Below, piece after piece: positions 1 to 26,000 of a DNA stretch of 64,000 nt. The stretch lies in the NCBI RefSeq assembly GCF_003721435.2, contig NZ_CP054585.1, forward strand, positions 1,550,001 to 1,614,000, read 5' to 3'. Positions within the stretch are counted from its first letter, which is position 1, and the number at the start of each line of letters is the position of its first letter. This DNA is from Halorubrum sp. CBA1229. GTDB taxonomy: Archaea > Halobacteriota > Halobacteria > Halobacteriales > Haloferacaceae. Position numbers and translations under genes: made by a program. The notes under the pieces were generated by a model that ran no database searches, was not told the origin of the DNA, and saw only the letters and a list, made by a program, of their open reading frames with translations.

Positions 1-332
1 CGGGTGGGACTCAAAGGGGCAGCCGCGAGGGCGAAGCACGCCGCAGCAAGCACTGGAAGGAGCGAACGAAGTGAGCGACTGAAGCGCGCAGCAAGGCGCG
101 CGAGCCGTCGCGGCTGGGGCTTTGGAGGTGTTCACAGACGGTCCGTCAGCAACTGTTTATACGCGAGCGGCTGGGGCTTTGGCGGTGTTCACAGACGGTC
201 CGTCAGCAACTGTTTATACGCGAGCGGCTGGGGCTTTGGAGGTGTTCACCGTCAATTCAACCTCATCTGTTTATAAACAAACGATTGAGACCGCAGGACC
301 GCTCAAGAAACGGCCGAGAATCATTTATAAAC
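1..332 (+). repeat. Dispersed repeat element, copy A, with tandem 57-bp TATA-bearing modules
   Basis: A GC-rich block (1-111) is followed by modules beginning GGCTGGGGCTTTGG at 112, 169 and 226, an exact 57-bp period. Each module ends in CTGTTTATA, with TTTATA at 156-161, 213-218 and 270-275. A decayed fourth TTTATA lies at 324-329. Modules 1 and 2 are almost identical and the third diverges in its second half. The left block shares GGGACTCAAAGGGGCAGCC and AGCGAACGAAGTGAGCGACTG with a second copy near 25680-25905. The copy is cut by the window edge. No protein is credible here; the short reading frames are low-complexity. It lies just past the 3' end of the arl operon. Confidence 0.85.
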
Positions 333-354
333 GACCGACATATCGTATCGATTC

Positions 355-2091
355 TTAAATCGACAGGATCGCGTTCACCAGCGTCCGGGTCGCGATCGCG
401 GTCGCCGCGCCGAGCCACGTCAGGAGGACGAAGTGGATGTACCCGTTCGCGGGGTTGCCGCCGTCGATCCGCCGGATCATCTGCGAGGAGAGGGCGGCGT
501 TGAACAGGACGACCGTCAGGAGGAGGTACTCGATCAGCGGGATGTCGTACGCGCCGGGGTAGACGATCTGGCCGATGTCCATCTCTTCGAGCCCGAAGTC
601 GGCCGTGAGGTCGGCGAGGATCGCGACGATCTCCAGTCCGATGAAGAAGGCGAACGTCGCCGCCGCCGTGATCCCGTACAGCAGCCCGATGAACGTCATC
701 GCGGCCTGCCGCCGCTGCTCGCGGAGCTGGTTCACGGTGTTCATGTTCTTCGAGATCAGCTCGCCGAGCTGCTTCGGATCCCCGCCCATCCGCCGGCCGA
801 CGAGGTACATCTCGGAGAACTTCTGAATCAGGTACGAGCGGGTGTCGTACGTGAACTGCTCCCACGCCCCCTCGGTGCTGATCCGCATGTTGAGCCGGCG
901 GTAGAGGCGCTCGATCGCCGGGGAGAGGTCCCCGAAGTTCTTCTCGCGCAGCGTGGTCAACACGTCGGTCGTCGTCGACTGCTTGGCGCTCTCGGTGGCG
1001 CCGAGCGCCCGGACGAACGAGGGGAACTCGCCGTCGCGGGCCGTGATCTGCTGTTCCTCCTGCCTGAGGACGACGCCGGTGATGATGAGCGGTGAGATGG
1101 GGACCGCGAGGTAAAACGGGAGCCGGACGTCGTCGAGGAAAAAGAGGAGGCCGGGGAGGCCGGGGCCGTAGCCGAACATCCCGGCCGCGGTGATCCCGAT
1201 GAGCAGGAAGGAGAGCCCGCCGCCGACCCCGAGCGAGGCCCACAGCTTCAGGTCGCCCGGGGCGCGCTCGTCGGGGTGGAACCAGATCGGGTCGTACGGC
1301 GACGTCGCCCGGATCATCGCGTAGAAGCCGAGCTGGACGAAGACAAACAGGACGATGACGGCCGCCACCGTCGCCGTCGGGTCGTTGCCCGTGAGGATCG
1401 GGAGCACGATGGCGAAGACGAGGGCGAACGTCATCGAGAGGATCATCGACATGTACAGGTCCTTCATCACCTCCAGGTTCGCCAGCGAGGACTCGTACAC
1501 CGTCTCGTACTTCGCGAGCATGACGTCCTGCTCGGAGACGAGGAACTCCTCTAGCGACTGGCCCGCCCCCATCGTGTAGCCGAGCCGGTCGAAGAAGTCG
1601 GCCATCGCGTCGGAGGGGACCTCCTCGGCCCGCCGGCGACAGGCGTCGTCGAGGCTCTGGTTCCAGGTGTCGACGAGGTGGACGACACGGCCGATCTCTT
1701 CGGCCGCGACGCCGTACTCCTCCTCCTTCGCGAGGGTCCGGAACACCTCCATGCGGTCGATGTTCGTCGTCGACAGCACGGTCATGTGCGTCATCACGAG
1801 GTGGAGCTGGTTGTCGATCTGGTTCTCCAAGCTGGAGAGATAGATCTTCGGGTAGATCACCGCCGCGACCAGCACGAGCCCGCCGAACATCGGGACGGGG
1901 ACCCGCGCCGCGAACGGCAGCGGGAGGACGAACAGGCCGACGACGCTCGCGGCGAACACGAGCACCGCGGGGAGCAACACGAACCCGACGTACTTCCGCT
2001 TCGAGATGTCGAGCTTGTCGTACGACTCCATGACGGCCGAGGTCACCTCGGCCGCGGTCGCGAGCCCGTTGCCGACCTGTTTCACCCCCAT
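355..2091 (-). CDS. arlJ: Archaellum assembly platform protein ArlJ (FlaJ)
   Basis: Integral membrane platform of the archaellum motor, related to the type II secretion/type IV pilus F proteins; it recruits the ATPase ArlI. The 578-residue product has hydrophobic clusters near residues 35-75, 205-260, 280-360 and 485-578, separated by large charged cytoplasmic loops, as in FlaJ. It is the last gene of the minus-strand operon arlCE-F-G-H-I-J. It starts 28 bp after arlI. A six-codon reading frame bridges that gap and ends TAATG on this start codon, which suggests translational coupling. Identification rests on family resemblance plus operon position. Confidence 0.93.
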   Translation of the reverse strand: MGVKQVGNGLATAAEVTSAVMESYDKLDISKRKYVGFVLLPAVLVFAASVVGLFVLPLPFAARVPVPMFGGLVLVAAVIYPKIYLSSLENQIDNQLHLVMTHMTVLSTTNIDRMEVFRTLAKEEEYGVAAEEIGRVVHLVDTWNQSLDDACRRRAEEVPSDAMADFFDRLGYTMGAGQSLEEFLVSEQDVMLAKYETVYESSLANLEVMKDLYMSMILSMTFALVFAIVLPILTGNDPTATVAAVIVLFVFVQLGFYAMIRATSPYDPIWFHPDERAPGDLKLWASLGVGGGLSFLLIGITAAGMFGYGPGLPGLLFFLDDVRLPFYLAVPISPLIITGVVLRQEEQQITARDGEFPSFVRALGATESAKQSTTTDVLTTLREKNFGDLSPAIERLYRRLNMRISTEGAWEQFTYDTRSYLIQKFSEMYLVGRRMGGDPKQLGELISKNMNTVNQLREQRRQAAMTFIGLLYGITAAATFAFFIGLEIVAILADLTADFGLEEMDIGQIVYPGAYDIPLIEYLLLTVVLFNAALSSQMIRRIDGGNPANGYIHFVLLTWLGAATAIATRTLVNAILSI

Positions 2092-17942: not shown

Positions 17943-17966
17943 CGCGGCGGCGACCGCGTCACTCTC

Positions 17967-18035
17967 GCCCTCTCGTCCTCCCCGCTTCCGCCCTCTCGTC
18001 CTCCCCGCTTCCGCCCTCTCGTCCTCCCCGCTTAC
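17967..18035 (+). repeat. Three tandem copies of a 23-bp repeat
   Basis: The unit beginning GCCCTCTCGTCCTCCCCGCT occurs at 17967, 17990 and 18013. The first two copies are identical and the third differs near its end. It lies in the non-coding gap after the response regulator and is a likely slippage-generated minisatellite. Confidence 0.85.
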
Positions 18036-18182
18036 GCACTCTCCTCGACGCTCTTCCTTCGCGGATCCCACCGACGGCGTCCGGATCCCGAACGAAATTT
18101 GAACGGACCTCGCCCCGACTCCGCACCAACGTTGTCCGGTTGTTGAAAAATCTATATTCCCCTCATCGCCCTCGCCGAGACC

Positions 18183-25539: not shown

Positions 25540-25547
25540 CGGACTCT

Positions 25548-25905
25548 TTTAAATACCATCGTGCGGTCGGCGCGTGCCGCCGAGCGCCCGCAGGGCGCGA
25601 GGTGCACGCGCGAGGGACGCGGTGAGCGCTCGAAGAGCGCGAACCGCGAGGCTGGGGAGGCGTGAGGCGCGGTCGCTGTGCGGGGCGGGACTCAAAGGGG
25701 CAGCCGCGAGGACGAAGCACACCGACGTAAGGACCGCAGGGAGCGAACGAAGTGAGCGACTGAGGACCGCAGCGAGGTGCGCGAGTCCTCGCGGCTGGGG
25801 CTTTGGCGGTGTTCTCCGTCGATCTATCAGCAACTGTTTATAGGCGAACGACCGGGTTTTTGGCGGTGTTCGCCGTCGATCCGTCAGCAACTGTTTATAA
25901 AAGAG
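25548..25905 (+). repeat. Dispersed repeat element, copy B
   Basis: Second copy of the element at 1-332. A TATA-like TTTTAAATA (25548-25556) precedes a GC-rich block with repeated GCGAG motifs. The shared core (GGGACTCAAAGGGGCAGCC near 25687, GAGCGAACGAAGTGAGCGAC at 25741) follows. Two modules then start at 25793 and about 25850. TTTATA occurs at 25837-25842 and 25894-25899, again exactly 57 bp apart. It lies downstream of metX and upstream of the acyl-CoA ligase. The several reading frames through it are compositional artefacts. Confidence 0.85.
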
Positions 25906-26000
25906 CGACCCAGTCCCGAGGCGCGTCTGTCACCCCACCGGCCAACCACACGATCAATCATGCAAATGTTCATAGTTCTCGATTCCGTGGTGTGTAAGGT

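Follow-up and report, generated by a model that had tools for sequence, protein, structure and literature searches.

Among described repeats, the pneumococcal BOX element (PMC3049150) is closest in behaviour to the haloarchaeal element reported here: both occur in about 100 dispersed copies per genome, are modular with a variable tandem module, have a predicted RNA fold, and are patchily distributed among related species. With respect to the BOX-like class, Halorubrum sp. CBA1229 carries many dispersed intergenic copies (96) with one to five tandem tail units each; BOX elements, for their part, have known terminal inverted repeats and target duplications (PMC3049150). The likeness is one of behaviour, with no claim to membership of a sequence family; unlike BOX, the haloarchaeal element has another sequence and belongs to another domain of life, its folded domain is conserved order-wide, and it comprises three hairpin domains whose stems are swapped among copies.

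The closest systems in setting are the MITEs, PATEs and SMRs of Haloquadratum which, in the portions of PMC3119063 compared here, are likewise small, transposase-free, mobile haloarchaeal repeats, the PATEs with palindromes near their ends and the MITEs with terminal inverted repeats, as in a pair of copies from genus g50 considered below. In contrast to the elements in those portions, our inspection of the Halorubrum form revealed a conserved mismatched-helix motif and no terminal inverted repeats; no sequence in the compared portions matches the element, and no sequence membership is claimed. The GTAG- and CGTC-tagged REP and BIME sequences (PMC3733652) are also intergenic palindromes that are often paired, and hairpin pairs occur within the haloarchaeal element too; unlike REPs, which are single hairpins of 20–40 bp, the nested double hairpins found here sit almost only inside a larger element and at fixed points. 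The covariation is of the kind that defines the structured RNA families of Rfam, but no family in Rfam 15 matches the element at E values up to 1, save for chance-level hits. A description of the element was not found among the open-licence PMC papers searched.

The window analysed here comprises 64,000 nucleotides of Halorubrum sp. CBA1229 and opens on a tandem array that the original prediction placed at the 3' end of the archaellum operon. The array proves to be where a copy of a larger, dispersed element ends at its 3' side; that copy begins before the first base of the window, and a second, complete copy lies further along. Their parts are listed below in window coordinates.

1–335, + strand: in-window part of element copy 1; its 5' part (P1-P2-S4) precedes base 1, at about 1549870–1550000 of contig C1
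8–22, + strand: near-invariant core GACTCAAAGGGGCAG of copy 1, the basal 5' strand of P3, with GGG opposite GGG
10–125, + strand: hairpin domain P3 of copy 1; 5' strand at 10–33, 3' strand at 101–125, interior branched or variable
111–167, + strand: tail unit 1 of copy 1, 57 bp; its first 15 bases double as the P3 3' strand
168–224, + strand: tail unit 2 of copy 1, 57 bp, matching unit 1 at 56/57 positions
225–281, + strand: tail unit 3 of copy 1, diverged
282–335, + strand: possible fourth unit of copy 1, decayed, 54 bp, proposed from sequence and spacing, with TTTATAA at 324–330
156–161, no strand assigned: TTTATA box of unit 1
213–218, no strand assigned: TTTATA box of unit 2
270–276, no strand assigned: TTTATAA box of unit 3
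25546–25910, + strand: copy 2, complete, with two tail units; core at 25689 (contig C1 1575689)
25565–25617, + strand: hairpin P1 of copy 2, supported by triplet covariation in P1 among the copies of this genome
25618–25651, + strand: hairpin P2 of copy 2, supported by own-arm versus chimeric pairing
25648–25667, + strand: conserved joining segment S4 of copy 2, GAGGCTGGGGAGGCGTGAGG
25689–25703, + strand: core GACTCAAAGGGGCAG of copy 2, by core match
25792–25910, + strand: the two tail units of copy 2, with TTTATA at 25837 and 25894

The tail units of copy 1, of the form CGGCTGGGGCTTTGG[A/C]GGTGTTC...TTTATA, start at 111, 168 and 225, so that the exact 57-bp spacing originally described holds, and the same period recurs throughout the genome, at 67 of 84 neighbouring module pairs across 96 loci (54 bp at a further 13). 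TTTATA likewise stands at all four positions where it had been reported (156, 213, 270 and 324), the final step being 54 rather than 57 bp. With a Tandem Repeats Finder score of 273, the array ranks first of all those in the window, and its regularity is far beyond chance; a 23-bp tandem repeat (3.4 copies, 96% matches) was also noted at 17966–18043. The earlier view that such spacing is not the work of slippage is borne out as a general statement, since the period is held although identity in the variable part is only 53% between neighbouring tail units (45% between units of separate loci), which makes simple recent slippage unlikely as the general cause; it does not extend to units 1 and 2 of the window, which are a near-identical pair of recent origin (unit 3 matches unit 1 at 43/57 positions). 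The 11-bp palindrome GACGGTCCGTC, to which importance had been attached, is indeed present at 137–147 and 194–204, that is, in units 1 and 2 only, but it is not conserved in the unit consensus, and a role for it is not supported. Element zones contain 3.95 TTATAA per kb, about eight times the density in the remaining intergenic DNA (0.48 per kb).

A BLAST-type search of window positions 1–400 against the same genome gave 45 matches, most of which begin at query base 1 or 2. The core GACTCAAAGGGGCAG has 99 hits, 75 of them exact, and 96 of the hits are element copies, 60 on the + strand and 36 on the − strand; about nine further copies are decayed or altered. The dispersed element is roughly 300–400 bp long and, in Halorubrum, runs in the order TTTATAA, P1, P2, S4 (CTGGGGAGG), core (CTCAAAGGGGCAG), the long P3, S6 (CTGGGGCTTTGGAGGTGTTC), a variable spacer, TTTATAA, with about 10–20 bases between the 5' TTTATAA box and P1. 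Hairpin P1 contains a GA/GA internal loop and P2 occurs in two frames, GTC...GAC or CGC...GCG, while S4, with the sequence GAGGCTGGGGAGGYGTGAGG, is followed by a variable G-rich linker and then the core, GGGTGGGACTCAAAGGGGCAG. The core and S6 pair as CTCAAAG/CTTTGG and CAGYCG/CGRCTG, with GGG opposite GGG in between. The 57-bp unit consists of S6, spacer, TTTATAA and ACGAG, and every added unit repeats the 3' strand of P3; among the 96 copies, 36 have one tail unit, 42 have two, 14 have three, and four and five units are found in two copies each. The element is transposase-free by the tests applied: at most 42 of the 96 copies keep any one reading frame open for 171 nt, which speaks against coding, and open reading frames across the array gave no convincing Pfam match.

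Some copies contain nested double hairpins (for example CACGAGAGC..GCTCTCGTG..ATCAGAACG..CGTTCTGAT), which lie at fixed insertion points in the element and almost never elsewhere; examples are at C1 900742, 1119671 and 2340595 and in − strand copies. We considered these as independent mobile elements and rejected the idea, as 24 of the 25 cases of three distinct types fall within the element and the remaining one is a truncated copy; a fourth pattern was too loose to judge.

A 276-nt fold of copy 1 has −146.2 kcal/mol (z = −4.5). In an alignment, made by sequence only, of 41 copies from this genome (A1), 98.5% of P3 cells are paired, versus 87.2 ± 0.5% after shuffling, with 140 double changes versus 33.0 ± 4.7, and sliding the structure by 1–3 columns leaves pairing in 25–40%. 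Across genera (A2, 53 copies), 95.9% of P3 cells are paired, versus 72.2 ± 0.8% in the control, and double changes number 305 versus 83 ± 8. Pairing in P3 is kept by compensatory changes both among copies and among genera, a pattern of covariation that DNA palindrome repair can mimic. The triplets of P1 pair in 94% of cases among the copies of this genome (62% when shuffled), and the arms of P2 form 8.7 bp with their own partner versus 4.2 bp in chimeras. The GGG/GGG loop is present in every aligned sequence of A1 and A2.

To assess the distribution of the element, exact core searches were combined with a covariance model of P3. The exact Halorubrum 18-mer of the core occurs in all 33 genomes of the genus, in 2 to 137 copies, and in none of 359 genomes of other genera. 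The P3 model has matches in 21 of the 28 genera of the family and, at the threshold of E ≤ 1e-6 used for the order, in 31 of 48 sampled Halobacteriales genera; none of 69 archaeal genomes from elsewhere in the phylum has a match. Among the matches that bear names are Halorubrum, Halobaculum, Haloparvum, Haloarcula, Haladaptatus, Halorussus and Halostagnicola. CTCAAAG is found in 48 of 48 named Halorubrum matches and CTGAAAG in every named haloarchaeal match from another genus, with CTTTGG and CTTTCG, respectively, on the opposite strand, which is a clean compensatory change from C-G to G-C. P1-P2-S4 is also present in several other genera, and further genera have head-to-head pairs of P3 units. 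The 57-bp unit, which it had been proposed to seek in Halorubrum genomes, is conserved in relatives and is not a local feature of this array; among the genera sampled its TATA-bearing form was seen in Halorubrum only, and from these sequences the tail seems specific to that genus. A viral or plasmid origin was rejected, as the exact Halorubrum core has no matches in IMG/VR, phages gave none, and just six haloarchaeal plasmid records have partial matches; the second contig of the same genome (364 kb) carries no copies where about 10 are expected (p 3e-5). Beside one element copy, at L007:34–86 on the − strand, lies the Rfam leuA-Halobacteria leader RNA (73 bits).

Comparison with related genomes points to movement and exchange. 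One relative (G019) is without the element at two loci occupied in our genome, one of them that of copy 2, which a second relative (G006) has in common with it; at the two empty sites of G019 the flanks are too diverged to resolve a target-site duplication or a precise empty site. G006 has many loci in common with our genome, with stems replaced. One of its copies (L138:3132) joins the left flank of our C1 1894284 to the right flank of 1994680 and, in uniting the flanks of copies that lie 100 kb apart, is a rearrangement junction. From copy to copy, the hairpin classes of P1, P2 and P3 show no linkage, which implies that copies exchange sequence or that the hairpins turn over independently. 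Two copies of genus g50 (L321 and L326) share 99% identity along 329 bp, stand in different flanks and end in the terminal inverted repeats GTGTTCAGATAAG/CTTATCTGAACAC, and a copy from another genus (L174) has the same kind of end, which suggests transposon-like units in those genera; a possible 9-bp direct repeat, GTTTGCCGG, flanks L321. No terminal inverted repeats were seen by inspection in the Halorubrum form. With controls detected, RVT_1, sought as a sign of SINE-like retro-mobility, was found in none of nine genomes of the genus, and our genome has one Y1_Tnp gene; no mobilising enzyme emerged from these searches. Three G006 copies were considered as sites that are empty in our genome, and none was used, two of the corresponding loci carrying other genes instead. 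Small genes resembling toxin-antitoxin or similar pairs stand at about C1 1587177–1587975 and 2912331–2913164, where G006 has an element copy.

Dispersal, intergenic placement, compensatory structure, presence or absence between species, exchange between copies, and the g50 pair with its terminal inverted repeats are all observed. We consider it likely that they reflect a family of dispersed mobile repeats, modular and non-autonomous, that spans the haloarchaeal order and is BOX- or MITE-like in character, with a conserved folded domain and with the window array as the 3' tail of one member. Copies would transpose by means of a trans-supplied enzyme, and recombination or conversion between them would swap hairpins, whereas selection would preserve both the segments that join the hairpins and the loops with GGG/GGG, GA/GA and A.A mismatches. 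The folded domain probably acts as RNA, on the strand designated + here, and copies would be homogenised by recombination. Extra tail units would add TTTATAA boxes and S6 strands, growing or shrinking as part of the element; they seem not to act as alternative partners for P3, an idea rejected because the second unit is independent of the C/T state of the 5' strand. Less probably, the family may be both mobile and functional, a haloarchaeal structured-RNA family built on the near-invariant GGG/GGG-interrupted helix, with up to more than 100 transcribed copies per genome whose hairpins are continually swapped; on that reading, the RNA might, for instance, bind a protein or form G-rich structures in the KCl-rich cytoplasm.

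Placement among genes bears on explanations that tie the element to its neighbours. Gene calls from a simple finder based on codon usage place each of the 96 copies between predicted genes, with convergent gaps overrepresented (34 of 96 versus 117 of 642, p 2e-4) and divergent gaps underrepresented, as might be expected of a cis-regulator acting as a terminator, a 3' UTR stabiliser or an insulator between convergent genes. The same enrichment would, however, follow from insertions that avoid promoters, no T-run terminator was found, and copies between co-directional genes show no preferred orientation (20 with and 27 against gene direction), making cis-regulation very unlikely; the placement fits insertion with promoter avoidance, not a directional regulator. 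These orientations also lend no support to the antisense promoters of the original prediction, and the proposed tie to the archaellum operon is likewise unsupported, the site being one of about 100, with unrelated neighbours and no orientation rule. The unit does conserve TTTATAA, which is enriched, but the palindrome is not conserved and the TTATAA boxes, themselves palindromic, are direction-less, and we give hardly any credence to a series of antisense promoters, or of protein sites, peculiar to that operon.

Two further explanations turn on what the fold is for. The element could be a multi-copy non-coding RNA gene family that is functional rather than selfish, each copy with its own TATA and its RNA working in trans, for example through a protein at the GGG/GGG helix; the order-wide fold with compensatory changes, the near-invariant segments in 100 copies, the TTATAA that 70 copies have in the 45 nt before P1, and the retention of copies at loci shared with a relative whose flanks are about 92% identical are all in keeping with this. 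We nevertheless consider it unlikely, given that some species have a few copies and others well over 100, and that copies are missing at orthologous loci. Its promoter is also poorly placed: the TATA box lies mostly 17–25 nt ahead of P1 with loose spacing and, at the distance that separates TATA boxes from start sites, a transcript would start within P1, so that TATA was rejected as a clean promoter of the element, and other genera are without it. The other explanation, to our minds improbable, is a hairpin or cruciform at the DNA level, which a transposase or nucleoid protein would recognise in single-stranded form, with palindrome repair matching the arms. Its plan would resemble the palindromes of the Haloquadratum PATE/IS605 elements, as far as the compared portions of PMC3119063 describe them. 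At C1 830734 and 143267 the core GGGG has become CCCC, giving a perfect GGG/CCC palindrome that resembles template-switch repair, and in one copy (L111, C1 2880999) the P3 interior has the opposite orientation to that in every other aligned copy and still pairs; DNA-level palindrome repair is therefore probably active, and may produce part of the covariation without selection. Such repair would, however, erase mismatched loops, and GGG/GGG stands in each aligned copy; that such loops persist in nearly all copies, and in every genus sampled, suggests that a specific fold is under selection. G.U cells outnumber A.C cells in P3 by 35 to 4 in A1 and by 30 to 10 in A2, the pattern that folding of a plus-strand RNA would produce, whereas P2 shows no such excess (7 versus 8), which suits a DNA hairpin; the P3 bias is a hint of RNA that rests on few columns and related copies. 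From these sequence patterns, we lean towards a fold that matters as RNA rather than as DNA, within a family of mobile repeats.

If the fold works as RNA, the repeats would constitute an abundant haloarchaeal RNA class that is missing from Rfam; if it does not, they would be a clear case of DNA palindrome dynamics imitating RNA covariation, which matters for all covariation-based RNA discovery. With about 100 copies per genome and one fold across an archaeal order, the family marks a large blind spot in haloarchaeal annotation, occupied by an element that takes up the space between genes, trades sequence among its sites, and is found at a rearrangement junction of a relative.
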